Below, piece by piece: positions 17,829 through 39,014 of a stretch of DNA of 39,014 bases (the stretch's first letter is position 1; each line of letters begins with the position of its first letter). Source of the DNA: a virus; the IMG/VR virus record IMGVR_UViG_3300010412_000036, positions 1 to 39,014 of that record; one strand, written 5' to 3'. Made by a program: the position numbers and the translations under genes. The notes under the pieces were generated by a model that made no database searches, was not told where the DNA came from, and saw nothing but the letters and a program-made list of their open reading frames with translations.

Positions 17829-19475
17829 ATGGCTGGAAAAGCACCCGAATATCGTACGACCCCTGGCGGAGGATCCGTCAAGGTTGGCTCTTCAACGTAT
17901 AGTACTGATGAGCTCAATACGCTTACCAATTGGAAGAACTCTCAGCGAGCGCTGGCAGGGCAGCTCCTAGCCTTAGCTCCTGGTTTGATCGATCGTAAAG
18001 ATGCCCTCAGGGCTACGAACGCTATGCGACGCGAAAAGCTGGAGCAAGCCATTGCATCCGGTATGATCAAAGGCGTCGAAGGCGGACAAGAAATCACTGC
18101 TTCTCAAACTGGTCTGGAGTTCGAAAGCGATGAAGCAGCAGCAAGTTTCTGGAAGCAGTTCGGAGAATCAACCGCAAGAGGCAATCTCGATCGAACGCGT
18201 GAGGTCCGTAATAAGGTCCGTGACCGGATCAAGAAAGACATCGACTCCCAGATTTCTGGTTTTCTCGACATCCAGTCAGTACTCAAAGAATCTGGAGCTG
18301 TCGAAGGCTCGACGGATGCGTTTACGAAGATCCTTACCAGCGCCGACATGGGCGCAGCACTTGCGTGGGATATCGAAGGTCTGCAACTCAAAGATGGAGC
18401 CGACGGATCTCAAGGCGTTCTAGACTACCAATGGGAAACGCCTGAGCAGATCGAGGCCCTCAACGAAATCGCCAAGGATATCCTGGATGGCAACACAGAG
18501 CGCTTTGCTCCGCTCGAGAATGTCAACGTAGGCGAGTGGCAGAAGGTCAGTGAGTACTACAAGAAGGGCGCTTCCGGCTCTCGTAGCCTGAACGTCGATG
18601 AAGACTACGGGAGTATCTCGTATAATCCTCTGATCGAACGGATGGTCGAACGGGATACAGAGTACATCGATGAGATCAAGACTGGTTCTGGTGAGCTCTT
18701 GGCATTGTATGCTATGGATGAGCTCAGTGGCCTACTTGGTGGAAGCTTCGGTGCGAACAAACCTTTCGCTGGTCAAGCGGCAGAATTGGCTGCTAAGCAG
18801 CGTCAACAGCTCAACTTGCAGAGCATGAGAGACCGGTCGAGATACTATGAAGATTCAGATGTGGTCCGCGGTGGTTCTGGAAGCTACGATTTTGGCGACC
18901 AGGCTATGAGAGCCCTTGCATCCTTTATGGCTAGTCAAGGTGCTGGATTCGAATCTGGTGGCGGCAAAAGCTATGCTCCTGTTGGACCTGGCGGCGGTGG
19001 CGGTAACAATTACATGACCGCGGATCTGTTCAGCAACACCGATCAGTACGATGACAAAGAATCTCTTGTAAACAAGACGCCGACGATGTTCGAAATGGTG
19101 CCCGGTCAAGGCCGCCGAATTGCATGGGACGATACGTCGTACCTGACAAAACGCGATGTTGAAACATTGAAAAAGCTCAACAAAGGCACTTTCAAGAACT
19201 TCAGCATGGAAAACCTTTCTGCTTGGGTCAAGTCGAACATTCCTACGAAGATGCTTCAAGACGGCATTTTCAAGATTCGCCAACAAGGCCAGAGCGTGGT
19301 CGTATCGTATGGTGCCAACGACTGGGCAGCCATTGAATTTCAGGATACAACCAACGAAAGCGCAATTGCTGAGTACGACAGAATGCAGCGCAATCCGTTC
19401 AAAGTTCACATCTACAAAGGTGCCGTCCTTGACATGCTCGGGCCGGCATTCAAAGGTCTCTACCGAGGAGAGTAA
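17829..19475 (+). CDS. Internal virion protein upstream of giant polymerase-like gene
   Basis: A 548-residue protein with GGAGG seven bases before ATG 17829. It begins with a flexible Gly/Ser stretch, continues with long charged helices (residues about 30-150, ESTARGNLDRTREVRNKVRD), a mixed middle, a Gly-rich break (about 380-395, GPGGGGGNNY), and a C-terminal domain of about 130 residues. There are no membrane segments or catalytic motifs. Its stop overlaps the start of the giant gene (TAATG), so the two are translationally coupled and probably co-assemble. A T7 gp15-like core or ejection role is inferred from gene order only. Confidence 0.6.
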   Translation: MAGKAPEYRTTPGGGSVKVGSSTYSTDELNTLTNWKNSQRALAGQLLALAPGLIDRKDALRATNAMRREKLEQAIASGMIKGVEGGQEITASQTGLEFESDEAAASFWKQFGESTARGNLDRTREVRNKVRDRIKKDIDSQISGFLDIQSVLKESGAVEGSTDAFTKILTSADMGAALAWDIEGLQLKDGADGSQGVLDYQWETPEQIEALNEIAKDILDGNTERFAPLENVNVGEWQKVSEYYKKGASGSRSLNVDEDYGSISYNPLIERMVERDTEYIDEIKTGSGELLALYAMDELSGLLGGSFGANKPFAGQAAELAAKQRQQLNLQSMRDRSRYYEDSDVVRGGSGSYDFGDQAMRALASFMASQGAGFESGGGKSYAPVGPGGGGGNNYMTADLFSNTDQYDDKESLVNKTPTMFEMVPGQGRRIAWDDTSYLTKRDVETLKKLNKGTFKNFSMENLSAWVKSNIPTKMLQDGIFKIRQQGQSVVVSYGANDWAAIEFQDTTNESAIAEYDRMQRNPFKVHIYKGAVLDMLGPAFKGLYRGE

Positions 19476-22400: not shown

Positions 22401-25400
22401 ACCAGTTTACGGTGGACCTCCTTAGAAAGCACTCTACTGATCCGAAGGTCAAGGATCTCATTGAGGGTATCAACGATATCACGCAGAGCAACGAATGGCT
22501 CGAAGTACTGAGCCGGATGGAACCAGAAGAGCGCAAGCGTGTGGTATCTGACCCGTTTGAGACCGCAGCTGTGGTGATCGAACACCTTGATGAGTTCAAG
22601 ACGTCGAATGCTCTGCTAGCTAAGATCGGTTTTGCTACTCCTCCGGTGCCGAATACCATGGAGAGGATCCTCAAAGACCAGGAAGCTCGTAGAGCTCAGG
22701 CTGAAGAAGATGCAGATCAGGATCCAGAGAAACGCAACTTCGGATACTACAAACAGCTCCCACAAGCTGAGAATACCAGCGAAGTTGTCGGTGCCATGTA
22801 CGGTGCCGGCATTTTCGGTGAGTCAGTCAAGAACATTGTAGACCGTGTCAAAGAGTTTCATCCCGCATGGGATGGTATGCGGGCCGATGAGCAAAACCAG
22901 GCAATCCTGGAGTTCGTACGACTTCTAGAACCACAGGACCTCACGACCTATATGCCTGAGCGTGTCGTTCGGCCAGTCGACACTGGCGAGAACATCACGA
23001 ATATGCTCGAGGACATTCTTGGTGTGTCCGTTGACCCTTACATGAAGACCGCGGACATGCGTTCATGGGCTGAGTGGTACAATGAGCAGATCCAGCGCTC
23101 GCCGGCACCGCAAGACCGTAAGGACATTGCTGAAGAAGTCCTGAACAGAATCCGTTTCCGTCTCGACAACTACGTACAGAAGACTGTTTGGGATATCACA
23201 CCGGATGGCGAGCCTTACATCCGTCAGTTCGAGGGTGTTGGAAACAACCGTCTTGAGATCGAGGGTTTCCCACAGATCAATCCGTTTCCTTACCTGAAGT
23301 CAAACAACAATCCGATCCTTGAAGGATTCAAGGACATCGGCATTATGTCGCCGGATCTCAAAGATGACTTCGATAAGATGGTGGCTGAGGATGGATTTGA
23401 AGCTGCAGCCCGCCAGGCAATGGTTTATGGATTCATCCCTTTAGGCCCGGCCGGCCACGTATTGAACTTCAATCCTGAGATCGTCGCAGGTAATCGTGCG
23501 AAAGCACTCAAGGTGATCTACCAGGGCTACGAGCCATTGATTGTGGATCGGCTAACGAATCCAGAATCTTACACAGCAGGCGTTCCCGCCAATGCTGAGA
23601 CCATTGCTCAGATGCTCGACTGGTCAAAGATTCCCATGGATGGGCCCGTCACCATAGACATGCTTAACGAGGCTTCCCGTGGTCGATCAATTGGGCAACT
23701 CAAGACCATGGCCGAGCTCATTCGAGAAAACAAGGCGTTCGGTGCTGATATCCGGAAAGTGATCGAAGCTTACCGGAACATGTTCAAGGATGAAAATGGA
23801 CAAGGTTACATCCCGCCGTATGTCCGTTTGAAGCAGAAGGGCGACGAAGCATTCGAACGTCTTCGTGCTGCCAAGAACACTGCCGAGCAGGCAAAGGCCA
23901 TGGATGACTGGGCCAATATCAGGGATACTGAAATCTGGAGAGCATCAGTCGACCTGTACAATCGTATCCTCAGTAACAACGTACCCTCAACCAAGAAGCA
24001 CCCTGTCAAGTATGCCAGCAACGTCTTGTCTTCTCAAGGCAAGATGCCGTTCAAGCCTCAGAACATTGACCAACTAGGCGAATCGTACAACATGCCGAAG
24101 TTCTATCAGAAGGACGGCAAGATCGATCCGCACTACATGGCTGCGGGCTTCAATGAGGATGGCACGATCAACGTGATGACACTCCCTGGCTTTATGAATG
24201 AAAGCTTTGGATTGCCAAATCCTGAAACTTATGTGCCTGATCACAACGATTCGTTTACGTATCTAAACCCGCTTATGGGTGCAACGATGGAAGCATCGAT
24301 GGGCTTCCGTCCTGTAGGTGGCGCGATCAAGATGACAGGTATCTATGAAACGGGTCTTCACAAGACAATCGCATCTCCTTCAGAAGGGATCTTCAACACA
24401 CTGCCTGACACTTTCCCGCCGGTTGGCATGATCAGGGCTGAGACAGCTCACAAGAATCCCCGTGTACGTACGGTGACAAGCCGTATGTCACCTGGAACTC
24501 GCTATGTCATGAAGGGTGGCACCCCGATCGCTGAGATCACGGATGCCGGATACAAGAAGCTTTCTGATGAGGATGCCATGAGCATCGTCATGAAAGAACC
24601 TACCTTGATGATCGAGCGTGTCAAACCTGACCAGATCAACCTGGACTACATTGATAAGCCTGACCGCCTCGGCACCGTAGAGACCGGCAATGCAGCAGGT
24701 CACTCTTTGCCGTTCGATCCGTCGACTCCAGAGATGAATAAGTACCTGACTCAGGTACAACGTGCTAACGCCTATGAGCTCACGGAAGACATCATTGGTA
24801 TGTCAGCTCTTACAGACGTCGCTCATGGCAAGCGTCGGTTCACACCAAAGCAGAACGAAGCTCTGCGTGGCTTCCTGCGTCGTCTGACCAATCGTTTGCA
24901 CATGCTCAAGCAGCAGGACCAGACGTACAAGGGCATCTCTGGCAATCAACTGTCTGAATTGGCTACTCACCTGGAGGCAGCTACGATCAGCGAGAACGTC
25001 AACCGTCCTCTTTTGAAGGCTATCCTGTTGACGTATCCTCAGATCATCGATGCTGCCAACCATTCGCTAGCTGATAGCTACGACAACATCTACCAGGTCC
25101 GCAACCGTGGTGCTTCTGTCACCGTGGGGGATATGAACGTTGTTGACATCGAGGTCTCTCGGGAGAACGCAATTGAGTATCTCCAAAAGACCTTTTCTGA
25201 GACACCCCGCAAAGCTGAGCGTGCCATCCAGCGTTATAAGCAAGCGATGGAAGAGCTCAAGATCTTTGACGAACAAGGGTTCATTGATAAGGATTCCGAT
25301 CTCGGCGTGATCGTGCCTGAAGCATGGCTCGAGGCCATGAATGAGCGCCGCGGTCGGCAAGGCGAGGCTCCGCTGGTACCTGGTACCCGTATCATTCTAC

Positions 25401-28400
25401 AGCGTACTCCAATCGATGCTCCTGAATCGATGGCAGCCGGCATCATTGCTGGCGTTCATCCCCGTGCTTCCCACGCCGTGATGCCACCCGGATTCATGAA
25501 AAGGTCTGGTACCGATATGGATGCTGATAGGATCGGGATCATAGCGCCATATCGTCTTGGTCCAGGCAATCAGTTCTACGATGACACGCAGTATCGTCCT
25601 GTGTTAGAACCTGGGAATGACTTCTTTGTCAACGCTTGGCAAGAGATGGCTGACCGCAGCTATGGCGAAGGAACAGAAGCTCTCGACATCCTTAACATCA
25701 AGTCTCCATCTGGTAAGCCAATGCCGGTCAAGTATGCACCTCTGCATACGACAGATGCTCTTTATCCGGATTTTATGTACGGAATTGGTCAAGAGAAAGA
25801 GATCGGCAAGTCCGTAGGCATGTTCCGCCAGGTCATGGATCAGTTCTTGTCCAAAGGAGCTTTGCCTGGTGAGGAGATCAGTATTGGCAAATGGTCCTTC
25901 ACGAACAATCCGAACGTAAGCGAAGTCGGTCGTGTCAAGATTGAAGCATATGACTCATTCGGTAAATCTCATAGACGAGTGGATCCCGAGTTAGCTTTTG
26001 CCAACATCTTCGATCTCAAGTGGAATGGTCAATACATTGTCGACCTGCCTGAGGCGAGTGCCAAAGAGATGGTTGGCAAGTTCAAGGAGATGCTTCAAGA
26101 GCGAGCTCTTCCAAAGAAGCGGTCTCGTGGACCTCAGGACCAATCGTTGTATGACGAATTGGGTTCGTTGACAAACCCTTCAAAGGCAGCGATCCCTTAT
26201 TCGCCAAGCTTTGCAGCGCGAAAGGCTGTTGCTGATGCTGAGAAGCACCTAGGGACAAGTCGCTTGCCATATGGCATGCCTGACAAGTTCGCCATTCAGC
26301 AAGAGCTGGAAAAGGTCTACCAGAAGATCTATACGGATCCTGACAAGGTCACAGAGCCTGTTGTCAAGAAGGTCAATCTAATCGAAGCTATCACTAAGAA
26401 GTCATCGATTGATAACCCGTACACGGATTCCAGGAACTACTATGCCAAGCGTCCTCAGACGATGAGCGAGGATGATGCTCGAGCCATGGTAGCTGTCGTC
26501 AATTACTCTCTCAACACGCTCCCTATCGTCGTCGATGATGGGGTGACCTTCGCGCTTCCGCCCAACATGGGTACGATCATGGTAAACAATGGCAGCCTGT
26601 ACTGGATGACGCCAGAGTTCGACATGGTCCCGCTGACGAAGGTGTTCCAACCGAATGGCCAACTTCATGAGCGCTTTGACAACATCCGGATGCAGAATGC
26701 ACTGACCATCAATGAGGTGGTACCACGTGCTCTGACCGGATACGTGACCATCGAAGAAGGTCTCCGCAATCTAAACGACGTCAAACGTCATGAACTCGAC
26801 AAGTTCCTCGAGTGGGAACAGCGGGAGGAGAACCGTGTACGGATCACGTTCAGTGCTCTTCCTAAGGAGCGGACCCTTGGTGGTCGTCGTCAGGTGGTGA
26901 TGACTGTCAATCCAGAGATGACCGAGCCGGAATTCCGCGCTGAGCTCATGTCTGGTCTCAAGCAGCTCAACAAGATGCTCAAAGAAGTAGGACCATGGGC
27001 GCATGGTGCTATCGTACCTGAGTCATTCTCGCACTTGACCTCATGGCAAGAGGAGATCGTGCGCAACAAGTGGTCAGAGATGGCCAACTACGGTACGGTC
27101 TTCCAGAATGACCGCGGTATCACAGACCAAGAAGCTTCTGAATTGGCGGGCCGCTTGGCTGTCACCCTGGGTAGTAGCCCGGAAGAGATGACCGATCTGG
27201 CATTGCTCGTCGACAATGAACGATTCATGACGCCTTTCGGCATTGTCAATGGGGCTCTCCAAGCTGGCGCTATGCCTGAGGTCGAGATCTACGGCGAGCG
27301 TATGTCTTTGCCGGCAGCGATCCTTCGGGTAGCTGAGAAGCAATTCGGTGAGGAACGGAAATATGGGTACTGGGATACGACCGAGTCAGATGGCAAGCGT
27401 CGTATTACTATGAGCGAACTAGAGTTTTACAGCCTCACAAAGCTTACTGACGCTGTTCCTCCAACGGACTGGAGCGAAGAAAGCCTGGTATCGTCTTTCA
27501 AAGTACTCAATGGGATGGGGTACGATGAGCTCAAGATCTTCGGCATCGATAAGCCTTGGAACATATTCGACGTGCTGAGTCGACATATGGATCCTGAAGA
27601 ACTTGTCGACATGGACAGGAAGCAGACGGTCATACGAGAAGCTCCAGAAGACAAGACCTTGAGGGTCACTCATAAAGAACTTATGATCCTCAGGGAGAAC
27701 AAAAAGTATGACCGCGGCCGTCATGGATTCTACGAATTCTTCAAAGACCTTGAAGAACGCGGATACGAAGTACTCGTTTCGATATCTGCTCCAGGAATTG
27801 GCAATACGTGGGTTGTCAAGGACGAAATCGCCCAGCGCAAAGCAGAGTATGACGAATGGAGAAAAGCTAAAGATGATGCAGATGCTGAAGGCAACCAGCG
27901 TTCATATGGCTATTACAAGCCGGCGAACCGGCAGTCTTCTCTCGTAGAAAAGGTCATCGGTGCTACGCGTGGTATCAGTCCTTCTCTTTCAGCCAAGCAA
28001 CGTCGTCAAATCAAGTCTCGTATCAATGATGCGCGGTCGCAGGTGCGTGCTATCGACGAGCTGAGTCCCCGTCAGATTCACGATTTCATGAGAAAGGTCG
28101 GTGATGACGTCAAGCAATTCGGTCTTGAAGGCGTAGATGATCTGATTGAGTTCTATGATGCTCACATCCCCAGTGAGTGGCTCAAGGAGCAGGTTGAGAT
28201 CGCTGAGTATGTCCATCGTGATGATCCGAAAAAAGCCAAAGAGGCGGTCGACATTATCAAGATGGCTGCAGTACTTGACTACCTTGATTCGTTGAAGCGC
28301 ATGGTCCAGTCTGATAGGGACTTGCGATTCAGTGAGGTGACTCCGTTGCTCAACATGAAAGAACGTATCGCCAAGCATCGCCGTATTGGTGGTGTCGGAT

Positions 28401-31400
28401 CGTTCTACCAGGATGCAGCTCTGGGCATCATCAACCGGATGGCCACCGACGTGGTGCCAATGTCGCCTGACGAAGAGATCACACAAGTGATCAGTACTCA
28501 GAATGGAGTCCCTGTTAACGTTGTCAAGCAGAGTGCGAACACGTGGGTCGATCCTGATACTGGGTGGAACTTCCGTGGTGGAGCTATCTCCTCGTTCATT
28601 CCGCACTATGGTGTGCCTTATATCAACCATCGTACAACGAATGAACAGCACATCAACATTGTCAACAAGATCAGTTCGTACGCTTCTTCGCTCTGGCGTC
28701 GCAACGATGAGCCAAAAGTCTGGCAGCGCCTGAAGACGGCCTTCACTGGCAAACCCGAGGAAATGAGCAGTGCTGTCATGGACCTTTTCGCTCAGCCGGA
28801 AGGTATGGGTATGGCTCGACGGTTCTTTGAAGATCCTAGTAGCTTAGGGTTGGGCATCCTGACGCAAACGGAGGATGAAACGGTCGATCCGGTCATTCCA
28901 ATGGAAGCACCTGAGTTCGAAGATGTTACGGTATCCTATGACGGCGTTGGTAACTCACCGTCGATCCGGTTTTCTGTCACAGCAGATTCGTACATGCAGG
29001 CTCCCACGCCTGATCAAGAGAGTACGTTCGGACGAACAACACGTGAGTTTGTTCTGCAGTCATTTGAACGTGCTGACATGGAGAATGTCCTCGATGAGCT
29101 GGCGCGATTCTTAGTACCTGACGAGGCCGTTATGGCTGATGAAAATCCGGGTACAGCAGCCATTAAGAAGAAGAACCTGCGTAAGGTGATCAAGCAGGCT
29201 GCAGCTTCCTGGATCGGTACGAAGGTTAACGCGGAGTTCATGTCTCATCATGCCCACCTCGCTGGTGATCTGGGTACACGAGCCATGCAGCGAACTCATG
29301 ACGGACTGGAAGCTGGCCCTGAAGTCGAAGCTATTGCAGCGACTATGGACAAAGAGACGAAGGCTATCTATGAGGAAGAGAATCTCCTCAGGAACGCTAC
29401 GATCCTGGATGCTATCGATCTTTCAAGTGCCCTGCATCCTATGCAGGTAGCCGATCTGTACCGTGATTTCGTGGCTGATTTCACATCTGATCAGCCAAGT
29501 GCACTGGCACTGAACAACTTCGATTTGATTGCCGAAGAGCTCTTCCCAGGAGTGTCGCCGGCACTCGCTCGTCAGCGTGTTGTTGAATACATGAGCGATC
29601 GAGCTGACGAAATCTATAATCATGACAAGAACTTCCCTCGGATGCAGAAGTTCATCGATAACTCCTTGGAGGTAGACGATGCCACGGAAAGAATCGAAGA
29701 CACGCAGACGGCGGATCTTTACGACGTACGAATTGCTCGTATACTCGGTGCCGAATTCTACTCACCTGCTGGTCTTCATAAGCGATTGAAAGGTTCACAG
29801 CAGCGTTCGCATCGCAGCTATCTCAATGTCGCTCGCACGTCGTTCGAACTGGAACAAGAGTACAACCAACGGATGGGCCTACCCTTCAATCAAAATGAAC
29901 TTGTCTCACGTGAACAAGTGGCGCTCCTCTCCGGAGGTCGTATTCCGACTATCAACAATGTGCCACGTGCTAATATCATGGCACCACTCAATGCAAAGGG
30001 TGTTGCCACCTCTCGAGATACCGGTATTCCTGTCGGCACGCCTACGACGCTAGCTATCCAGTCGGAAGCTGGTGATATGAAATGGCTCCAGGGTCGCTGG
30101 CTTGGTGCGGCTGGTCACATAAAGTATAGCCGCGAGGGCTTCGCTCTCATGATGGAGCCCTCTACGCGTCAGATCTTCGAAGTCCCCATGGAAATGGTGA
30201 CAGCTATCGAGATCGGACACAAGGCAGGCTTTGCCAACCGCATTGCTGATCACTTCATGAAAGACGTCGTCAAGAAGTGGGGCACGGAAGAGCAGATGCT
30301 GACAGCCCTTCTGGACGGCGACAAGAAGAAGACAGCTGACGGTTGGTACTCGAAGTATCCGGAATTCTTCGATGCCCCGATGATGCACATGACCACGATG
30401 TTCGCAGAGAACATCAACAAGGTCTCCACAGGTATGAGCTATCTCTTCGGCAACGATGTAGCATCTGCTGCTACGCATGCCGGCATAGCTCTTGTGATGC
30501 TTCCGTTTTCTTTGCCTGCAAGTGTACACCATGGCCTGAGCGCCCTGAATCACGTTGCCAAGATGCACTGGCGGTACCTGAATCGTATCACCCAGAACCT
30601 CACGACAGGTGCCAATGCCTGGATCTCGGATCCTTTCATCAGCTTCATGCATGATGTAATTCCCAATATTGTACCAAGTCAAGAAGGTCTGCAGACATCT
30701 CAAATGGCCAGTGCGGCTCAGCGCTTTGCTGGTCACTACGGTGCAGCTATCAATGAAGCTTCTGGCGATGTGTCTACTCATGAAACATCCACTGTTTTGG
30801 CAACGGTGAAACGTGTCCAACGACAGCTGGATCAGCTCCGGGGTACCTCGAAATTCGAAGACGTTCTTGCTCTGATTGGCAACATTGAGATGGGCCGCAA
30901 AGAGCTCGAGCTTTATGATGACGAAGGTCTTCGTCTGGCACGTGTCTATGATGAGAATGGCAACATGATCGGTGGCCTCCAGGATATCTATGAGACCAAC
31001 GTTGATGCGATCACTCAGCTGTTCAGTATCAGCTATGGTGCCGATAACGCAAGGAATCTGTGGCTCCGAAGATCTGCTCAGGCTGCATCCATTTTCCCGA
31101 AATCGGTCAACAACTATCGTCTGCAGATGGCCTACAAGCAGGCCGAAACAGAACAAGGATCCGTCAAGAGCGTTCTGGGTATGCACGAGCGCAGTGAGGC
31201 CAAGCAAGACATAGCTTTCCCGATACGAGCTGCCGGCAAGGGTCTCTTTTCAGACGATGTTGTCAAGCGAGCCAACATCGCTGAGGACTACATGTACTCG
31301 ATCATGGGCCAGTACATCGGTAAGAGCGAGGCCCTGAAAGCTCCTCTAGCACACCGAGCTGTACTATTTAGCCACTTTGGCCGTGGCCGTGCCAAGATGA

Positions 31401-32098
31401 AGACCGTGCGAGCGTTCGATTATCTTCGTCAGTCTAAGGCTCTTGGACGTAAGTGGCATCAGCGCTTCCTGGATATGGGTATCGAAGTAGGTACCGATGG
31501 TGTCCTCAATCCGGTGCAGATCAAAACACTCATGGCTTCTGGTGCTCTGGGTGGTATCAAATCATTCCGTACTCTTCTTATGTACGGTTTTGGCATGATC
31601 ATTTCAGATTTCGTGGCTGATCTCTACGGTGAAGACTCCGAAGAGCTCGAGAATATGAAGACGGCCGTCAAGAATATGCGTTCGGTAGCCTATTCTATTG
31701 GTGGCGTCGAGCGCCAATATCAGATGGACGACATCCTTGCAACCCTCGTGGAAGGTGTTATCAGCCTGATCACCTTCGGTCTCTACGACGTTGATGACAT
31801 CGATAAAGGCAGTGAATTCCGGTTCTACCAGGTCAAGGGGATCGACCAAACGGTCCAAGACCTATCTTATGGGCTATCGGGAGGCATGGGGGTTAGTGAG
31901 GGTCTTTCTGTTATTTTGTCGCCATTCACGTATCGCATCCTTGAAGGAGCTGATGATTATGACAAGCCAAACAGCAACTGGGAAACACCGTACAACGACA
32001 AGGTCGACGAATATGTGACCAAGAAGGTCGGTCGCCTGCCGTTCATTGGACCGGTAGCTGAACCGATCGTTGAAGAGGTACTCAAGTCAGGTGACTGA
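19475..32098 (+). CDS. Giant (4207 aa) virion protein with DPBB-type RNA polymerase motif
   Basis: One uninterrupted frame of 4208 codons from ATG 19475 (AGGAG at 19466-19470). Residues 1973-2030 read IILQRTP ... HPRASHAVMPPGF ... SGTDMDADRIGIIAP. This matches the beta-prime pattern LNRAPTLHR ... [21 protein letters not shown] and the SGxDxDxDK signature of giant single-chain phage RNA polymerases (phi14:2 gp66 is the proven case). D2014, D2016 and D2018 would bind catalytic magnesium. K1619 and K1630 may be the paired lysines of the other barrel, and GKSVGMFRQ (2111-2119) follows downstream. Two GYYK joints (1090-1093, 2812-2815) bracket this core. Hydrophobic helices lie near 649-670, 3668-3684 and 4033-4052. 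Position at the end of the structural block suggests it is packaged and ejected, then transcribes early genes. The polymerase call is strong by motif but untested; no T7/N4-type polymerase motifs were recognised. Confidence 0.75.
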   Translation: MGNWSRYYHTRLRSPRPHRSYGKPKTDRFTDVDDYGVPNPYYKEQSINTRDWQQYQKGYRGDQLTSEKDKNYAWSRFQKAEWDNDIIAEHFGGSPGRKLDPEDYYKSVEELSWKLTKDFERLGLNTNLDATEFSEAIEGLFGAAEAEGVDLGYSRYEKQLAQELQTSSFLPTLVSKRRSAGKQLHDMFESLSPEQQAYHRKRELEYRTYVSELSGRSVQPEVRPDLNNLAYYLEPGTKMDKDGKPTNLKTWLQQNVTGEIYPLRPKQWYLDQLEHIRKLEERESIKQGINAVVPLQGVHKDTYGTPSDPIQQPRRKQASGISQLQNQIKFYETNSEGMLVHEDGVAVLRSPEQVDEDLKRATSEIIMRLQNVDMPEEEKARMIKYFMTSASGDGLLNAISGILGRFIEPFTPEGGYSSFSYLKPGLSFGDPEIFKMYAAELNRLKSLAAEHRDLYSKAKTNGLGQKVYDLSEAVDGRDSFGAGISAVSQGVVGTLFGSDASRATADAIFGLQEISRGIMEGGEPTRDWKLQAHRMLKNQLSEKALKYLEGEADIPEDFWLELPYAMGYVAGLSVPINWSARATAPVTQMSQRVLRSKPAMKYMDPIVKNLGMTPEVFAGRLVNTTALTTQIYATTSMIDPLNMFEKRNIVTAVAGGVAGAATQQMIISAMKRRGNTYKATRDMLRNMELNDPRRAEFAARLMQTNKKEQFLGGWAAATGLGPAMEATQLMYQDVDFWSSMGDYFDVSNPYGFWWLDMGLGTIDGYEAAKAYGKALSLSHNTIDGGNPEITERAIQLQQQAKEKNEARRHWFRKKSGEDAPQAETETTQEPAEMGTPEWVAQTVEKVRKQDPETWDKVRAAQEAYNSYIEEVGSLKDVEGEAPVETPTTFGDHFKNKTPNERGRYVVDDITGLFPDMTPWQQSFYNQFIKQDPVQVELTKENRAWYVEDDATGERFVRMPETQPFHSKVFVHEGIGHQFTVDLLRKHSTDPKVKDLIEGINDITQSNEWLEVLSRMEPEERKRVVSDPFETAAVVIEHLDEFKTSNALLAKIGFATPPVPNTMERILKDQEARRAQAEEDADQDPEKRNFGYYKQLPQAENTSEVVGAMYGAGIFGESVKNIVDRVKEFHPAWDGMRADEQNQAILEFVRLLEPQDLTTYMPERVVRPVDTGENITNMLEDILGVSVDPYMKTADMRSWAEWYNEQIQRSPAPQDRKDIAEEVLNRIRFRLDNYVQKTVWDITPDGEPYIRQFEGVGNNRLEIEGFPQINPFPYLKSNNNPILEGFKDIGIMSPDLKDDFDKMVAEDGFEAAARQAMVYGFIPLGPAGHVLNFNPEIVAGNRAKALKVIYQGYEPLIVDRLTNPESYTAGVPANAETIAQMLDWSKIPMDGPVTIDMLNEASRGRSIGQLKTMAELIRENKAFGADIRKVIEAYRNMFKDENGQGYIPPYVRLKQKGDEAFERLRAAKNTAEQAKAMDDWANIRDTEIWRASVDLYNRILSNNVPSTKKHPVKYASNVLSSQGKMPFKPQNIDQLGESYNMPKFYQKDGKIDPHYMAAGFNEDGTINVMTLPGFMNESFGLPNPETYVPDHNDSFTYLNPLMGATMEASMGFRPVGGAIKMTGIYETGLHKTIASPSEGIFNTLPDTFPPVGMIRAETAHKNPRVRTVTSRMSPGTRYVMKGGTPIAEITDAGYKKLSDEDAMSIVMKEPTLMIERVKPDQINLDYIDKPDRLGTVETGNAAGHSLPFDPSTPEMNKYLTQVQRANAYELTEDIIGMSALTDVAHGKRRFTPKQNEALRGFLRRLTNRLHMLKQQDQTYKGISGNQLSELATHLEAATISENVNRPLLKAILLTYPQIIDAANHSLADSYDNIYQVRNRGASVTVGDMNVVDIEVSRENAIEYLQKTFSETPRKAERAIQRYKQAMEELKIFDEQGFIDKDSDLGVIVPEAWLEAMNERRGRQGEAPLVPGTRIILQRTPIDAPESMAAGIIAGVHPRASHAVMPPGFMKRSGTDMDADRIGIIAPYRLGPGNQFYDDTQYRPVLEPGNDFFVNAWQEMADRSYGEGTEALDILNIKSPSGKPMPVKYAPLHTTDALYPDFMYGIGQEKEIGKSVGMFRQVMDQFLSKGALPGEEISIGKWSFTNNPNVSEVGRVKIEAYDSFGKSHRRVDPELAFANIFDLKWNGQYIVDLPEASAKEMVGKFKEMLQERALPKKRSRGPQDQSLYDELGSLTNPSKAAIPYSPSFAARKAVADAEKHLGTSRLPYGMPDKFAIQQELEKVYQKIYTDPDKVTEPVVKKVNLIEAITKKSSIDNPYTDSRNYYAKRPQTMSEDDARAMVAVVNYSLNTLPIVVDDGVTFALPPNMGTIMVNNGSLYWMTPEFDMVPLTKVFQPNGQLHERFDNIRMQNALTINEVVPRALTGYVTIEEGLRNLNDVKRHELDKFLEWEQREENRVRITFSALPKERTLGGRRQVVMTVNPEMTEPEFRAELMSGLKQLNKMLKEVGPWAHGAIVPESFSHLTSWQEEIVRNKWSEMANYGTVFQNDRGITDQEASELAGRLAVTLGSSPEEMTDLALLVDNERFMTPFGIVNGALQAGAMPEVEIYGERMSLPAAILRVAEKQFGEERKYGYWDTTESDGKRRITMSELEFYSLTKLTDAVPPTDWSEESLVSSFKVLNGMGYDELKIFGIDKPWNIFDVLSRHMDPEELVDMDRKQTVIREAPEDKTLRVTHKELMILRENKKYDRGRHGFYEFFKDLEERGYEVLVSISAPGIGNTWVVKDEIAQRKAEYDEWRKAKDDADAEGNQRSYGYYKPANRQSSLVEKVIGATRGISPSLSAKQRRQIKSRINDARSQVRAIDELSPRQIHDFMRKVGDDVKQFGLEGVDDLIEFYDAHIPSEWLKEQVEIAEYVHRDDPKKAKEAVDIIKMAAVLDYLDSLKRMVQSDRDLRFSEVTPLLNMKERIAKHRRIGGVGSFYQDAALGIINRMATDVVPMSPDEEITQVISTQNGVPVNVVKQSANTWVDPDTGWNFRGGAISSFIPHYGVPYINHRTTNEQHINIVNKISSYASSLWRRNDEPKVWQRLKTAFTGKPEEMSSAVMDLFAQPEGMGMARRFFEDPSSLGLGILTQTEDETVDPVIPMEAPEFEDVTVSYDGVGNSPSIRFSVTADSYMQAPTPDQESTFGRTTREFVLQSFERADMENVLDELARFLVPDEAVMADENPGTAAIKKKNLRKVIKQAAASWIGTKVNAEFMSHHAHLAGDLGTRAMQRTHDGLEAGPEVEAIAATMDKETKAIYEEENLLRNATILDAIDLSSALHPMQVADLYRDFVADFTSDQPSALALNNFDLIAEELFPGVSPALARQRVVEYMSDRADEIYNHDKNFPRMQKFIDNSLEVDDATERIEDTQTADLYDVRIARILGAEFYSPAGLHKRLKGSQQRSHRSYLNVARTSFELEQEYNQRMGLPFNQNELVSREQVALLSGGRIPTINNVPRANIMAPLNAKGVATSRDTGIPVGTPTTLAIQSEAGDMKWLQGRWLGAAGHIKYSREGFALMMEPSTRQIFEVPMEMVTAIEIGHKAGFANRIADHFMKDVVKKWGTEEQMLTALLDGDKKKTADGWYSKYPEFFDAPMMHMTTMFAENINKVSTGMSYLFGNDVASAATHAGIALVMLPFSLPASVHHGLSALNHVAKMHWRYLNRITQNLTTGANAWISDPFISFMHDVIPNIVPSQEGLQTSQMASAAQRFAGHYGAAINEASGDVSTHETSTVLATVKRVQRQLDQLRGTSKFEDVLALIGNIEMGRKELELYDDEGLRLARVYDENGNMIGGLQDIYETNVDAITQLFSISYGADNARNLWLRRSAQAASIFPKSVNNYRLQMAYKQAETEQGSVKSVLGMHERSEAKQDIAFPIRAAGKGLFSDDVVKRANIAEDYMYSIMGQYIGKSEALKAPLAHRAVLFSHFGRGRAKMKTVRAFDYLRQSKALGRKWHQRFLDMGIEVGTDGVLNPVQIKTLMASGALGGIKSFRTLLMYGFGMIISDFVADLYGEDSEELENMKTAVKNMRSVAYSIGGVERQYQMDDILATLVEGVISLITFGLYDVDDIDKGSEFRFYQVKGIDQTVQDLSYGLSGGMGVSEGLSVILSPFTYRILEGADDYDKPNSNWETPYNDKVDEYVTKKVGRLPFIGPVAEPIVEEVLKSGD
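22736..22753 (+). other. First GYYK joint in giant protein (left border of polymerase-like core)
   Basis: It encodes NFGYYK at residues 1088-1093, preceded by a charged, probably coiled segment (RRAQAEEDADQDPEKR). A matching joint occurs 1722 residues later. It is probably a domain linker or processing site, by inference from the duplication alone. Confidence 0.5.
24329..24364 (+). other. Candidate lysine pair of the first double-psi barrel
   Basis: It encodes KMTGIYETGLHK (K1619 to K1630). It recalls the KMAGRHGNK segment of bacterial RNA polymerase beta, whose lysines contact the substrate. It lies about 390 residues before the DMDAD motif, a spacing reasonable for a single-chain two-barrel enzyme. 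The match is short, so this remains a candidate. Confidence 0.4.
25403..25528 (+). other. Catalytic DxDxD motif region of RNA polymerase-like core
   Basis: Codons 1977-2018 of the giant gene: R1977-T-P1979 (beta-prime NRAP arginine/proline equivalent), then HPRASHAVMPPGF, then SGTDMDAD with D2014, D2016 and D2018. In beta-prime the equivalent aspartates chelate the catalytic magnesium. The usual glycine of DFDGD is alanine here, and phage enzymes of the DFDID type also lack it. Confidence 0.7.
27902..27919 (+). other. Second GYYK joint in giant protein (right border of polymerase-like core)
   Basis: It encodes SYGYYK at residues 2810-2815, after a charged helix (EYDEWRKAKDDADAEGNQR) and before a polar stretch with VEKVIGA. 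The first joint is likewise followed by VVGA. The shared layout suggests duplicated linkers around an inserted module. Confidence 0.5.
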
Positions 32099-33606: not shown

Positions 33607-33645
33607 AAAAAAATGGGTACGAGACGGAATAACCGCCCCGTACCC
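33607..33645 (-). terminator. Intrinsic terminator within minus-strand operon
   Basis: On the minus strand GGGTACG (33645-33639) pairs with CGTACCC (33621-33615), with a possible inner CGG/CCG stem. An A and seven T follow (33614-33607). It lies 12 bases after the stop of the 34400-33657 gene and before the next ribosome site, so it should reduce expression of the last two genes. Confidence 0.8.
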
Positions 33646-33656
33646 TCTAGGAGGAC

Positions 33657-34400
33657 TCATCGGTAGATCACCGTGAAGCCCAGTTCTGTCAGCTTGCTGC
33701 AGACCTCATCCTTGATGCGGTACATCTCCGCAAGGAGCTCCGTCTCAAGGTCCCAGCACTCGAACCAGAATTGAATCCGCCCGTCGTTGCTGATGTCGTA
33801 GCATACGTCTACGTCTACCACAGCTTTGGGCTCTCCAGCAACGAACTCCAGTTCGAGTTGGAATCGCTGCATAATATCGTTGTTGGCATTGGTTTGGGTA
33901 CCAATGTTCTTGTTGCCACGACCATCGTTGATCTCGAGGACCGTACGGTCTTGGCTGACCTTGGCATACTTCAGAGTATTGACCAGGGTCTGATAGTCGT
34001 TCACGTTGACGAACATCGCCTTCATCTCACGGATGATGCTGAGTGTTTCCTTCGTCGTACGCTGACGATTCAGATAGCCTGTGAACTGAGTGTACTGCTC
34101 TGAAGGGCAGATCTCACCTCGCATGACGATCTTGGGATCGGCATTGAACTCATTGAGTGCAGTGTACATACCGATCCGGTGGGTTGGCACAGCGTTCACG
34201 TCGTAACGAATGCTGTGTGTGAGATCTACAGAGATAAAGGTCTTCTCTGGGTCCCACTTGTAGAAGTCCAGCGCAGTCGGGATGCTTCGCGGCTGGATAG
34301 TGAAGTCAGAGCCTTTGTAAGGCGGAAGCAGCTCAGCTGCTTGACCGTTCCTAATGATAAGCTCTTTCCCGTCCGGTGTGATATTGATCTGATGATCCAT
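33657..34400 (-). CDS. Unknown 247-aa protein of the minus operon
   Basis: I chose ATG 34400 because GGGGAAAG lies upstream, about eleven bases away; GTG 34430 lacks any ribosome site. It has a mixed alpha/beta composition with strands such as ELIIRNG, KTFISVDLTHSIRYDVN and PKAVVDVDVCYDI, and a C-terminal charged helix (LETELLAEMYRIKDEVCSKL). The charge and size would suit a DNA-metabolism accessory, but no motif proves this. It overlaps the previous gene by 50 bases in another frame and is followed by a terminator. It is the largest gene of the operon. Confidence 0.6.
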   Translation of the reverse strand: MDHQINITPDGKELIIRNGQAAELLPPYKGSDFTIQPRSIPTALDFYKWDPEKTFISVDLTHSIRYDVNAVPTHRIGMYTALNEFNADPKIVMRGEICPSEQYTQFTGYLNRQRTTKETLSIIREMKAMFVNVNDYQTLVNTLKYAKVSQDRTVLEINDGRGNKNIGTQTNANNDIMQRFQLELEFVAGEPKAVVDVDVCYDISNDGRIQFWFECWDLETELLAEMYRIKDEVCSKLTELGFTVIYR

Positions 34401-34800
34401 CGTCTGTTCTTTCCCCAATTGATTTGACACTCATTACGTTGAACTGGCGCTCGCTTGGTCTCAGGCGGCGCTCTGAGACGTAGTTACCGTACTCATCGTA
34501 AGTACGCATGACTCCGTCTTCGTGGTCTGCAATGTCGTAACAGACGACCTGTCTGTCGACATAGCCATTCTTGAGTTCATGAGAGAGCTCGCGTACTTTC
34601 TTTGCTCGCTCCTTCTTACGTGAGGTGAACTCTTTCCTCACTTCCGCGAATGTTTCATCCTCCTGCTCCTGCGCCAGGATAGCTTCGGTAATCTTCTGCC
34701 GCTTGAAGTCGGCTTCTTCTTCCGAAATCTGTACTGGCACGACTCTGCTCTCAATCGTATGAGCTAAAGCCTGCAGTTGCTGAGGATCGATCCAATCCAT
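34351..34800 (-). CDS. Unknown 149-aa helical, charged protein
   Basis: ATG at 34800 follows AGGAGGTCCT, an excellent ribosome site. Residues 20-90 are highly charged and helical (SEEEADFKRQKITEAILAQE, EFTSRKKERAKKVRELSHEL), probably a coiled coil. The C-terminal part is polar (VMRTYDEYGNYVSERRLRPS). There is no recognised family. Its 3' end overlaps the start of the next gene by 50 bases. Its role is unknown; a protein-protein or nucleic-acid-binding adapter is possible. Confidence 0.6.
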   Translation of the reverse strand: MDWIDPQQLQALAHTIESRVVPVQISEEEADFKRQKITEAILAQEQEDETFAEVRKEFTSRKKERAKKVRELSHELKNGYVDRQVVCYDIADHEDGVMRTYDEYGNYVSERRLRPSERQFNVMSVKSIGERTDDGSSDQYHTGRERAYH

Positions 34801-34827
34801 AGGACCTCCTGCTGTTAGTGAAATACC

Positions 34828-35058
34828 CTATTCTTTAGGGATGTCGTTTGCATGCCCACCCTCTTCTGGAGTGGGCACTCCGTCTACCATTTTGATACTT
34901 GCGTCAATAGTCTCTTCACTGGAGAGATAGTAGGCATCTTCGCCACGTTCGTTGTTGAGCATTTCGCGTATGTCAAACTCGTCGAGCGGTTGATTCGAGT
35001 AGTATCGCATTCTACGGTCTTGCCCGTCCATACGATAGTTCACGATGTATGTGTACAT
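34828..35058 (-). CDS. Unknown 76-aa acidic protein
   Basis: ATG at 35058 is preceded by AGGTG. It begins with a strand-like YTYIVNYRMDGQDRRMRYYS, continues with an acidic helix (PLDEFDIREMLNNERGEDAY), and ends with a flexible PTPEEGGHANDIPKE. It is too small and unfamiliar to assign. A short CCCTA/TAGGG hairpin sits at its stop but lacks a proper T tract. Confidence 0.55.
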   Translation of the reverse strand: MYTYIVNYRMDGQDRRMRYYSNQPLDEFDIREMLNNERGEDAYYLSSEETIDASIKMVDGVPTPEEGGHANDIPKE

Positions 35059-35081
35059 ATCACACCTGAAAGATGGAATGA

Positions 35082-35576
35082 TTACTTGATCTTGTGTTCC
35101 GCCTTGACGTGATCAATGTGCTCACGCAGCCAGGCTCTGACATGCCGGTCCATGTGGTCGATTTCGAGATCTTCTCCACGCTGGAAGGGTTTACCGTTCG
35201 TTGTTTTCATATGAACTCTGAAGTTCAATCGTTCACGCCTGATATGGGTACGCCTCTCGTAATCGTACTCGGTGTAGCTATCAGCGCGTATTTCATGAAT
35301 GTAGACTTCGACCCATGCACCTTTGACGCGTGCTTTGACCTTTCCACTGATGGCATCCAGGTCGTTATTGAGTCGTTCTACGAGATCGGTAATGTACGGC
35401 CTACGCTTCTTACGCATAGCGTTGATGCGTTCATTCAGGCGACTCTGCTTTTGTCGCAGAATGTCCATCTCTTTGCGTATCGCTTCTTCTTCACGCATGA
35501 TCTTCACTACGCTGGTAGGCTGAGCCTCACGGATCTTCGTAAGGTCCGCCAGCAGGTTCTTCGTTGCTGTCGACAT
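35082..35576 (-). CDS. Unknown 164-aa basic coiled-coil protein
   Basis: ATG at 35576 has AGGAGA about ten bases upstream. Residues about 25-75 form a charged heptad-like helix (REEEAIRKEMDILRQKQSRL, NERINAMRKKRRPY). A beta-rich basic part follows (GKVKARVKGAWVEVYIHEIR, HIRRERLNFRVHMKT), with a final His/Arg-rich helix (DHMDRHVRAWLREHIDHV). The basic beta part could bind nucleic acid, though this is inference from composition. It overlaps the 3' end of the previous gene by 50 bases. Confidence 0.6.
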   Translation of the reverse strand: MSTATKNLLADLTKIREAQPTSVVKIMREEEAIRKEMDILRQKQSRLNERINAMRKKRRPYITDLVERLNNDLDAISGKVKARVKGAWVEVYIHEIRADSYTEYDYERRTHIRRERLNFRVHMKTTNGKPFQRGEDLEIDHMDRHVRAWLREHIDHVKAEHKIK

Positions 35577-35817
35577 GTTCTTGGTCTCCTAGATCTAAAA
35601 AGTTCAAGACGTACGGCTGGGTTTGACTGACTAACCACTCCACACACTCTTCGCGTGAACCTTCGAAGGTGGGGTACCGCTTGTCTAGAAATAGAATGGC
35701 TCGATACAGATTGTCCGGTATCGAGTACATGTGTCCGATGGTCACTTTTCCCATCATCACCGTATCGGAACCAGTGATATGAGGCTTGGCAAGTCTGACT
35801 TTGATTTTTCTGCTCAT
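35527..35817 (-). CDS. Unknown 96-aa protein directly after a terminator
   Basis: ATG at 35817 gives SRKIKVRLAKPHITGSDTVM at the start and a compact mixed domain with a Tyr/Trp-rich middle (YRAILFLDKRYPTFEGSREE), ending EEPAGGPYEDP. The frame stays open upstream to 35979, but that extension is read through a terminator hairpin and looks non-coding (CFCICM-type residues). The chosen start has no Shine-Dalgarno sequence, because the terminator T tract lies immediately upstream. Translation could be leaderless or re-initiated. Function is unknown. Confidence 0.5.
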   Translation of the reverse strand: MSRKIKVRLAKPHITGSDTVMMGKVTIGHMYSIPDNLYRAILFLDKRYPTFEGSREECVEWLVSQTQPYVLNFLDLGDQEHVDSNEEPAGGPYEDP

Positions 35818-35820
35818 ACA

Positions 35821-35863
35821 AATACAAAAGCCGCAGACCTCAGGGTGGGGAAGATCTGCGGCT
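35821..35863 (-). terminator. Intrinsic terminator after the first three minus genes
   Basis: On the minus strand AGCCGCAGA (35863-35855) pairs with TCTGCGGCT (35837-35829) around a 17-base loop, followed by TTTGTATT. It lies about 40 bases after the stop of the 36146-35904 gene and separates the proximal SSB-tip gene group from the distal operon. Confidence 0.7.
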
Positions 35864-35903
35864 GAATGCGCCTGCGACAGGATACAGGCAGTATGGGGAA
35901 TCT

Positions 35904-36146
35904 TTAGACTGGCTCGGCTACGCTTGCTGGCATTGGACCAGCATGGTCTGCGCTGCCTACCTCGTATCCCTTCAGCCATCCTTCAATGAAGGTCATAGCT
36001 GTAGTACGTTTTTCGAAATGGTACTCGTCGCCTTTCAGGAACACGACGTACCAGGTACGTGCTCCGTCCGAACGTTGCTGGGCTGTGCCGCCATACGGGG
36101 CGACCTTCTGCACCAGGTCATTCAGGCTTACATTGAGCTTGGGCAT
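35904..36146 (-). CDS. Unknown 80-aa protein
   Basis: ATG at 36146 is preceded by AAGGAGAGACC, a strong ribosome site. The sequence has a helical start (KLNVSLNDLVQKVAPYGGTA) and a beta middle (ARTWYVVFLKGDEYHFEKRT), then a helix and a flexible Ala/Pro end. This strand-turn-strand with a helix could be a small single-domain binding protein. It is the third gene after two proteins with SSB-type tips and is followed by a terminator. Function is unknown. Confidence 0.6.
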   Translation of the reverse strand: MPKLNVSLNDLVQKVAPYGGTAQQRSDGARTWYVVFLKGDEYHFEKRTTAMTFIEGWLKGYEVGSADHAGPMPASVAEPV

Positions 36147-36155
36147 GGTCTCTCC

Positions 36156-36422
36156 TTAGAATGGTACATCATCATCATTGATACCGCCACTTCCTCCACC
36201 GTTTCCGCCATACGATTGTTTGGCCTTGTCAATCCGCATCTTGGTGGACTGGAACTTTTGTTCCGCGATCGCAGCCACTGCGGCTGGGACCTTATCCATG
36301 GTGGTTTCCGTGGTGATGACGAGCTCTTCTTTCTCGTCAGGGAATTTTCGGCCCTGCTGGTTGGTCTTACCCGGCACGACGCGGCTGAACCGCATCTCAA
36401 CCTTCACGGGTTTGTCACTCAT
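36156..36422 (-). CDS. Small protein with Gly-rich linker and SSB-type acidic tip (DDDVPF)
   Basis: An 88-residue protein with AGAGGT before ATG 36422. Residues 1-68 are a short beta/alpha region (VKVEMRFSRVVPGK, ELVITTETTMDKVPAAVAAI), then a Gly/Ser/Asn linker (about 70-81, SYGGNGGGSGGI) and the terminal NDDDVPF. Bacterial SSB proteins end in a flexible linker plus DDDIPF, which docks repair and replication proteins. The N-terminal part is too short and unlike a standard SSB OB fold. It may be a minimal single-stranded DNA binder, a DNA-metabolism accessory, or a mimic that competes for SSB partners. Confidence 0.6.
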   Translation of the reverse strand: MSDKPVKVEMRFSRVVPGKTNQQGRKFPDEKEELVITTETTMDKVPAAVAAIAEQKFQSTKMRIDKAKQSYGGNGGGSGGINDDDVPF

Positions 36423-36459
36423 CGCTACCTCTTGAACATGATTACACTACTAATATAAT

Positions 36460-36714
36460 CTAAAAGGGCAAATCATCAAAATCATCTGGTGGAATTTGTG
36501 CATCGGCACGTAGCTCGTCCCACATCCACGCATGCCACATGACGATCGCTTCGTGTTCAGCACGGGTGATGACATGGGTCTCTAGCAGCTTGTTGCATTC
36601 ACGAATCAGATCCCACCGATCCATCATGATGAACTCCTGCTCTCTCTCTGAAAGCCTTTCTGGCAGTTCCGCTGTGACGTCCGCCGGGACATTCACGATT
36701 GGTTTCATTGTCAT
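36460..36714 (-). CDS. Small helical protein with SSB-type acidic tip (DDFDDLPF)
   Basis: An 84-residue protein from ATG 36714 (AGGAAGAG upstream; a second ATG two codons later is possible). It is mostly helical: ELPERLSEREQEFIMMDRWD, then ECNKLLETHVITRAEHEAIV and a Trp-rich MWHAWMWDELRA. It ends PPDDFDDLPF, a close match to the SSB C-terminal tip. No OB fold is visible. It is the first gene of the minus operon, next to another protein with the same type of tip, so a shared partner (host SSB-interacting proteins or a phage polymerase/helicase) is a plausible inference. Confidence 0.6.
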   Translation of the reverse strand: MTMKPIVNVPADVTAELPERLSEREQEFIMMDRWDLIRECNKLLETHVITRAEHEAIVMWHAWMWDELRADAQIPPDDFDDLPF

Positions 36715-36746: not shown

Positions 36747-37577
36747 ATGGAATGCATGATAGAACATGTGGACAGCTATGGCCAGGTCACCAGAACGATC
36801 ACGTTGTATGAACCTGGTGACATCATCCCTGATGGCATTAATGTCATACCGTACCGTGATCGCCTGAGTGCACAGAAAGGGGACTACGTCACCGATCTGA
36901 ACGGTCTCATGATACCTTGCCGTCGCCGGCAGACGACAAAGCGCGGCATGTTTCTGGTATTCCCACGCTTTGCATGGTTCCCAGAGAAGTATCCTGACTT
37001 CATATACCCGCTGTGGCGGCTCGCGGAGCGAGGAAGGACTCCTGGTATGCCTGACAGCTACAACGCTGTCCTGAGGCTCGTAGGCGCTGGAGAAGACCTA
37101 CTCACGTCAGCTCTGCTTGTCTTCAAAGGGGTGCCACTCAATGTGGCTTGGAAGAAAACACTGCGTATGTTCCGCAATGACCAGTTCCTGGAAGCGCTGG
37201 TCCATCAAGGAGAGTACATGTCCACACTACGAAAGAAGCTCATAGAGCGCGGTATCGATGAGGACCGTATCGCTGAAGAGATCGAGAAGGCTCTTGGTGA
37301 TGACTCTGAAAAGAAGTCTGGCCTGAAAAAGTGGGCACTCGAGACATCTATGAAGATTCTCGAACAGAAGCCGGGTCGTCGTCCACCAGAAGGATCGCCG
37401 CGGTATGACGATGAAGATGAGCTTGACCGGATGATCGGTACTACACCGTCTCCCAGTCTAGCCCTCCCGAGTCCTCCTGCAGGCTTTGTCGAGGTGGGTA
37501 CATCATTCGACGACGTTCCTCATCGTCAAACAGGACAGACGGATCCTGATGCTGACGCAGAGGACGAGCATATTTGA
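36747..37577 (+). CDS. Unknown 276-aa protein, possible small terminase
   Basis: ATG 36747 gives 276 residues, while ATG 36756 three codons later has a slightly better upstream purine stretch. The first half is a mixed domain (GDIIPDGINVIPYRDRLSAQ, MFLVFPRFAWFPEKYPDFIY). Residues about 145-215 are helical, with EYMSTLRKKLIERGIDEDRI, EEIEKALGDD and LKKWALETSMKILEQKPGR, which resembles the DNA-binding and oligomerisation helices of phage small terminases. The end is acidic and proline-rich. It is convergent with the large terminase rather than upstream of it on the same strand, which weakens the call. Its last 137 bases overlap the terminase gene on the opposite strand. Confidence 0.6.
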   Translation: MECMIEHVDSYGQVTRTITLYEPGDIIPDGINVIPYRDRLSAQKGDYVTDLNGLMIPCRRRQTTKRGMFLVFPRFAWFPEKYPDFIYPLWRLAERGRTPGMPDSYNAVLRLVGAGEDLLTSALLVFKGVPLNVAWKKTLRMFRNDQFLEALVHQGEYMSTLRKKLIERGIDEDRIAEEIEKALGDDSEKKSGLKKWALETSMKILEQKPGRRPPEGSPRYDDEDELDRMIGTTPSPSLALPSPPAGFVEVGTSFDDVPHRQTGQTDPDADAEDEHI

Positions 37578-39014
37578 AGGCCATACTCAATGAGTCAGGC
37601 CAGTCATCATGATCATCGTTGCCAAGGTTGATCAGCTGGGCCCACATCTTCTCGAACTGCGGTCGAAGACGGGCATCTACGAAGATGATATCCGTTCTCT
37701 GATCTGCAAAGAATGGCTCCAAGATGGCATTGATCCGGTCCGCTTTTTGCTCCTTGCCTGCTGTCTCCTGGATAAGCCGTGCCGGTTCACGATTCTCCAT
37801 CATCTGCCTGCGGATCTCTTTGAAGACCAGCTCCTGCTGGCCATTGACTTCGATAACCACCATGGATGCATGGTACTTGCGGCGCCATTCCCTGATGATG
37901 GTAGCCTGACCCTCTCGTATCATTCTACCGTCTTTGTACTCGCGATTGATTGCCCATCCACGTCCTCCCATCATGTCGAGAATGACAGGAGCGCTGATGA
38001 GCTCAGTGTCGGCATGACCGGGCTTGTATCTGGTGATGTCACCATGCTGAATGCATGTCACCACGGTCTCGTCGGCTTTTTTCTTCTCTGAGGTGGCGAT
38101 ATCGATCGCTATCGTAGACGCCAGTGGCATGAAGTGGGTCTGATTCTCGTATTCCCACTTGAGCTGAGGTGGTCTGTTGCGTTTGGTGACGATTTCCATC
38201 TTGACGAATCTGAACCGGTCACGGTCATACTTGATCTCCTCAGGTGGGTTGGTGATCGACAAGTATTCCTGGTAGAAATAGGCCACCTTGCCCTGGTCGA
38301 ACGAATCCTTGTAAAGTCCGAGAATGTAGTACAGGTCGTGGCGATCTGGCCATGCAAGACTTTTGAGTCCTTTCTGGATCTGCCCACACTTGCTCTTGTC
38401 AGGGTGTATGAACCTGCCATCAGGTGTGAAGCTGCAGTGAGTATCGATGACGGTCTGGAGCTCCTCAAGACTGATGATCTTGCGTTCGATGCCGAACCAC
38501 TGGTCTGAGCGCTGGATGACTCGAGGTACCGTATCCTCATGCAGGATCGTACCCAGGAAGACGATCTTGCCTTTTTGGGAATCTAGTGAGTTGCCAAGGG
38601 ATGCGAACCACCACTTATTGATGCCGGCACGGCGCTCTTCAGTCTTGACGTTGTTCTCTGAGTAGATATCATCACCAATGATGAGCGTAGGACGCATGCG
38701 CTTGACCTGCTTGCCGCGGACCTGTTGTCCTGCGCCTACTCCCCAGATCGTAGTATCATCAGATGTCGTGAAGGCATTCTGTCGCCAGATACGGTTCTCA
38801 CCGACGATATCTGGATCCTCATCGAGTTGTACAGCCTTCGGGTGCTTGTTGCCGAACAAGGCAGCAAGGTCCTTATGTGACTCGATGACCGACCTGAGGT
38901 TCATCACGAAGGTCTCGCTCATCCCTGAGGTCTCAGAGGCGATCATGATGAGCTTCTCATCCATGAGGTGCTTGAAGATGCGCCCTTCCCTGTTGCGGAA
39001 GGCGATCATCTTAC
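37441..39014 (-). CDS. Terminase large subunit, N-terminus beyond window edge
   Basis: The frame runs off the right end (an AAG lysine codon precedes the first in-window ATG at 39009), so the Walker A region is missing. Counting from that ATG, residues 109-115 (LIIGDDI) are the Walker B strand with D113/D114, and 152-156 (LGTIL) is the coupling motif. The RNase H-like nuclease shows TIAIDIA (D303), VVIEVNG (E387) and DDWPDSLSM (about 468-474). Together they identify the DNA-packaging motor and headful nuclease of tailed phages. The gene is on the minus strand, opposite to all structural genes, and converges with the plus-strand 36747 gene over 137 bases. Confidence 0.9.
   Translation of the reverse strand, partial: KMIAFRNREGRIFKHLMDEKLIMIASETSGMSETFVMNLRSVIESHKDLAALFGNKHPKAVQLDEDPDIVGENRIWRQNAFTTSDDTTIWGVGAGQQVRGKQVKRMRPTLIIGDDIYSENNVKTEERRAGINKWWFASLGNSLDSQKGKIVFLGTILHEDTVPRVIQRSDQWFGIERKIISLEELQTVIDTHCSFTPDGRFIHPDKSKCGQIQKGLKSLAWPDRHDLYYILGLYKDSFDQGKVAYFYQEYLSITNPPEEIKYDRDRFRFVKMEIVTKRNRPPQLKWEYENQTHFMPLASTIAIDIATSEKKKADETVVTCIQHGDITRYKPGHADTELISAPVILDMMGGRGWAINREYKDGRMIREGQATIIREWRRKYHASMVVIEVNGQQELVFKEIRRQMMENREPARLIQETAGKEQKADRINAILEPFFADQRTDIIFVDARLRPQFEKMWAQLINLGNDDHDDWPDSLSMAFKYARPLRQHQDPSVLFDDEERRRMMYPPRQSLQEDSGGLDWETV

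Follow-up and report, generated by a model that had tools for sequence, protein, structure and literature searches.

What are two small neighbouring proteins of a bacterial virus doing with a C-terminal tip like that of a bacterial single strand DNA binding protein (SSB)? The proteins, here called A and B, are encoded by an unclassified bacterial virus represented by a linear fragment, which is a whole IMG/VR record. This entire 39,014-bp stretch is the window analyzed here. A string of small unannotated genes lies 3' of TerL on the same strand, B first and then A, arranged as follows.

37441-39009, minus strand: TerL (phrog_38, 7.5e-46), the gene being cut by the fragment end
36460-36714, minus strand: gene for protein B, 84 aa, ATG start, SD-like site GGAAGAG
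36156-36422, minus strand: gene for protein A, 88 aa, ATG start, SD-like site AGAGG
35904-36146, minus strand: third gene (C), 80 aa, no family assigned, with its own SD and without a tip
33615-36714, minus strand: likely operon beginning B-A-C, small genes down to a terminator-like hairpin
33645-33615: the terminator-like hairpin, 3' end of the likely operon

The genes are closely spaced: 37 bp separate the B stop from A and 9 bp separate the A stop from the start of gene C, the A stop sitting at the SD of gene C. A and B look like real genes because they have ATG starts and SD-like sites, and because their GC contents per codon position (0.61/0.34/0.56 for B and 0.57/0.39/0.63 for A) resemble that of TerL (0.56/0.37/0.66). 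Further along the B-A-C run, one small gene matches phrog_12688 and another matches phrog_11501. Because the contig breaks off within TerL and the 39,014-bp fragment has no recognizable replication gene, the partners of A and B are not visible.

The C-terminus of A reads ...GGGSGGINDDDVPF / GGNGGGSGGINDDDVPF, the last residues being INDDDVPF, and that of B ends in IPPDDFDDLPF. The codons of the two tips are:

36156-36176, minus strand: A tip, GAT GAT GAT GTA CCA TTC TAA, DDDVPF and stop (residues 83-88)
36460-36486, minus strand: B tip, GAT GAT TTT GAT GAT TTG CCC TTT TAG, DDFDDLPF and stop (residues 77-84)

The first-pass annotation had described the two adjacent products as having SSB-type ends, and this description stands: both ORFs are real-looking, and in both an acidic, hydrophobic-Pro-Phe end lies directly at the stop codon. 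With the pattern [DE][DE][ILVM]PF at the C-terminus and residues taken as independent, the chance of a tip is 8.5e-6 per protein; that one of 45 genes carries it has a chance of 3.8e-4, and that two neighbours among the 45 do, about 3e-9. A and B are the only carriers among the window ORFs of at least 30 aa (2/412). In a background of 90 loci (930 kb) not selected for the tip, just one of 2745 ORFs of at least 60 aa carries it, and this sole carrier (L086) is a canonical SSB (phrog_44, 3e-24). The independent-residue odds and the background count thus place the observation beyond chance, and the tip motif looks like a specific marker. The D-run of A is encoded by three GAT codons; repeat slippage would not yield the V-P-F-stop that follows.

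The bodies that carry these tips were modeled with AlphaFold2 from single sequences, without an alignment. The A model (mean pLDDT 77) consists of two strands, residues 5-16 and 30-41, that form a beta-hairpin, and a long helix, residues 42-71. Residues 72-88 are disordered in the model, and a Gly-rich linker (72-82) precedes the tip. The B model is weak (mean pLDDT 66) and helical, with the best helices at 33-45 and 51-71 and a tail of low confidence. Both tips would lie in low-confidence, probably disordered tails. The A body is basic (pI 9.6, charge +3.5) and the B body is acidic (pI 4.8, charge -7). Compared as possible paralogues from a tandem duplication, the two have different models (hairpin/helix versus helices, the B model being weak) and opposite charges, and the bodies are apparently unrelated to each other. 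No OB barrel is present in either single-sequence model. Foldseek searches with the models gave nothing better than E 0.08, and VIA gave Z values of at most 3.4 for A and 5.4 for B, within noise; OB folds were not among the matches listed by either program, which does not prove that the fold is absent. The earlier suggestion that neither body is an OB fold thus agrees with the single-sequence models, two strands plus a helix in A and helices in B, and with the lack of any SSB-family match. The accompanying suggestion that the pair might be minimal SSBs fares poorly for B, which is unlikely to be one since its body is acidic and, in the model, helical; it may apply to A, where the body is basic and a Gly-rich linker leads to the tip. 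The further first-pass idea, that the pair might be decoys for host SSB partners, is plausible.

In SSB-tip pockets the terminal Phe is buried, its carboxylate is gripped by basic residues, and the Asp residues are paired as well; binding becomes weaker when the Phe is missing or the Pro is altered (PMC10164576). The terminal Phe with its free carboxylate, the Pro, and upstream Asp are all present in A and B, in keeping with the SSB-type label given to the tips in the first pass (cf. PMC10164576). In a phage SSB, the NDYPPF end is required to load Sak4 on coated ssDNA (PMC5928155). Because A and B carry the tip elements on a flexible end, and in view of the published pocket rules and the Sak4 case, mimicry of the SSB tip, by which both proteins would dock onto SSB-partner pockets, is taken as their most likely function. 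We favour it with moderate confidence, judging from the sequences.

In the proposed mechanism, the terminal Phe carboxylate, the Pro, and the acidic residues would enter the pockets by which DNA-metabolism proteins bind the SSB tip. These partners might come from the host (such as RecO, RecQ, PriA, ExoI, RecG, the chi subunit, or DnaG) or be the phage's own, and would be recruited or competed for during infection. The basic hairpin/helix of A would bind nucleic acid or nucleoprotein, and the linker and tip would hold partners there, as in SSB but without an OB fold; the basic body and the Gly-rich linker probably favour such tethering. B, with its acidic helical body, would be a soluble adaptor or competitor; the acidity probably speaks against DNA binding and favours this role. 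Through both tails the virus probably engages, or competes for, the repair and replication machinery that bacterial SSB recruits. We infer the docking, the nucleic-acid contact of A, and the competition by B; partners may be recruited, linked, or blocked, and the pockets may belong to host or phage.

A, though not B, might instead be the phage's own non-OB ssDNA-binding protein, perhaps dimeric, that does the job of SSB, with B as an accessory tip protein. The basic body, the Gly-rich linker, and the tip occur in A in SSB order; no OB-fold SSB gene was recognized among the scanned proteins of the fragment; and the A model has a weak, non-significant likeness to the RNA-binding coat proteins of ssRNA phages. 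However, the record is a fragment and a true SSB may sit off-contig, A matches no SSB group in sequence or in fold, and its ordered part is only about 71 residues, with two strands in the model. This assignment is considered unlikely.

Docking by tip mimicry can be compared with several known systems. A and B share with bacterial SSB (SSB-Ct, E. coli DDDIPF; PF00436) the acidic residues, the hydrophobic residue, the Pro, and the terminal Phe, and in A the tip also follows a Gly-rich flexible linker. Unlike bacterial SSB, they have models without an OB fold, no PF00436 match, and bodies of only about 71-73 aa. Phage SSBs that themselves end in an SSB-like tip (HK620 SSB, NDYPPF; T7 gp2.5 and Enc34 types) are likewise phage-encoded with the tip at the chain end, and members of phrog_18154, among the small phrog_18154/phrog_7364 proteins, are similar in size to A and B; yet neither A nor B gave a match to any of these families. 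The phrog_2479-type proteins of two IMG/VR loci (L108 and L100; DDFDDIPF) are, like A and B, small and without an assigned function, and have a DDFDD-type tip and no SSB-family match, but their sequences are not similar to those of A or B.

Relatives of A and B were sought widely. Neither protein has a match in Pfam (including PF00436), PHROGs (including the ssDNA-binding families), or NCBIfam, and tblastn of 50,697 phages and 72,556 plasmids gave nothing credible. IMG/VR and GTDB genomes, scanned for exact peptides, gave no relative; such scans demand an exact eight-residue match, so that distant relatives can escape, and the collections may lack records close to the window. No credible relative was found among PDB sequences. 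Matches of A to a PDB amidase and a pilin (E 2e-4) are sums of weak stretches and were taken as chance; its best single PDB stretch (i-Evalue 0.0066), in the pilin, leaves the tip outside. The bodies also show no similarity to the tip-bearing proteins or to any of the 10,561 ORFs in the complete set of retrieved loci. A direct scan by TerL alone found no relatives. In 80 IMG/VR loci with distant TerL relatives (20-42% identity in the best segments), TerL and an endolysin were the only genes shared with the window, A and B being absent. The window itself carries an endolysin/peptidase gene at 16025-16477 on the plus strand (phrog_894, 1.3e-31).

Tips of the same kind are found elsewhere in viruses. 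Scans of IMG/VR with exact back-translated patterns matched 26 contigs for the B-type tip (DDFDD-x-PF-stop) and 59 for the A-type tip (NDDDVPF-stop). Forty tip proteins, a set made up mostly of non-canonical SSBs and including the background SSB and a second tip protein of L100, were scanned singly: 18 fell into ssDNA-binding families, two were other DNA enzymes (Ref-like and primase/helicase), one was RIIB, and 19 were unknown or unmatched. Among 57 aligned representatives (A and B included), Pfam recognized SSB (12), gp32-like, Enc34 ssDNA-binding, and UDG families, as well as DnaB, a RecA-dependent nuclease, and helicases; PHROGs recognized several ssDNA-binding families. Small tip-bearing phage proteins without an assigned function are common, not rare, in viral sequence. 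Since half of the singly scanned carriers lack an assigned function, the tip alone fixes no role. The twin arrangement has a parallel, because L100 and L102 each carry two tip genes, 0.7 kb apart, one belonging to phrog_6015 (an ssDNA-binding family) and one to phrog_2479. At L100:2665-4218, the phrog_2479-type protein ends in DDFDDIPF and the ssDNA-binding-family protein in ADIDDIPF. In a separate observation, IMG/VR loci L119-L176 contain widespread 70-110-aa proteins with an SPDYKG...AGW...SL pattern and an NDDDVPF end; many of these match phrog_18154/7364, 'single strand DNA binding protein'.

A and B might also be anti-defence or anti-repair decoys that fill the pockets for the SSB tip in those nucleases, helicases, or defence proteins of the host that would otherwise attack phage ssDNA or sense phage SSB; this too seems improbable. 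It is worth testing because several defence systems, namely Hachiman, Nhi, Retron-Eco8, AbpAB, and Hna, respond to phage SSBs (PMC13381803, PMC10732053), but in the passages cited the sensing is not traced to the SSB tip. The small size of A and B and their place in a run of small genes without an assigned function would suit decoys, and the role of soluble competitor suits the acidic body of B; against this, no PADLOC match was found for A or B. SSB-tip affinities are typically micromolar, and a decoy would therefore need a high copy number.

The tips might serve the phage alone, with no host target, linking A and B to a phage primase/helicase or polymerase in the manner of the T7 gp2.5 tail. 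Work cited in PMC5686142 describes binding of T7-type SSB tails to the phage polymerase and primase-helicase. The close match of the tips to the bacterial SSB consensus, however, best fits host pockets, and replication genes for comparison are absent from the fragment. A purely phage-internal role is considered unlikely. Coincidence, with the acidic PF ends serving some other purpose or no purpose, is very improbable, for although no homologue was found and the D-run of A is a short GAT repeat, the odds for two neighbours are minute and the lone background tip belongs to a real SSB.

Apart from coincidence, these alternatives are refinements of docking onto SSB-partner pockets and are not exclusive of it. 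A bolder version of the docking idea, possible but doubtful, is that A and B are paired, purpose-built tip mimics with unrelated non-OB bodies, one tethered to DNA and the other soluble, that redirect or block the host SSB-partner network. SSB-tip-bearing phage proteins were known already; here the tips are found on two orphan bodies. In bacteria, DNA replication and repair converge on the SSB-tip pockets, a hub that is also a target for antibacterial drugs, and small natural tip carriers on non-SSB bodies would offer ready-made probes or competitors of this hub. Furthermore, to judge by the survey, the tip can serve as a marker, flagging DNA-metabolism proteins and candidates in otherwise unannotated viral sequence.

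Two other plus-strand ORFs of the window can be recorded. ORF 19475-32098 encodes a 4207-aa protein with no sequence match in Pfam or PDB, and an RNA-polymerase-like motif pattern gave no relatives; it contains QRTPIDAPESMAAGIIAGVHPRASHAVMPPGFMKRSGTDMDADRIGI at 25391-25531, a stretch that on visual inspection looks like the DxDxD catalytic loop found in two-barrel RNA polymerases (cf. the virion RNA polymerases of crAss-like phages). ORF 36747-37577 (276 aa) has no family match in Pfam, PHROG, or NCBIfam profile searches. It starts 33 bp from the start of B, shares 137 bp with the 3' end of TerL, which lies on the opposite strand, and carries an internal SFDDVPH.
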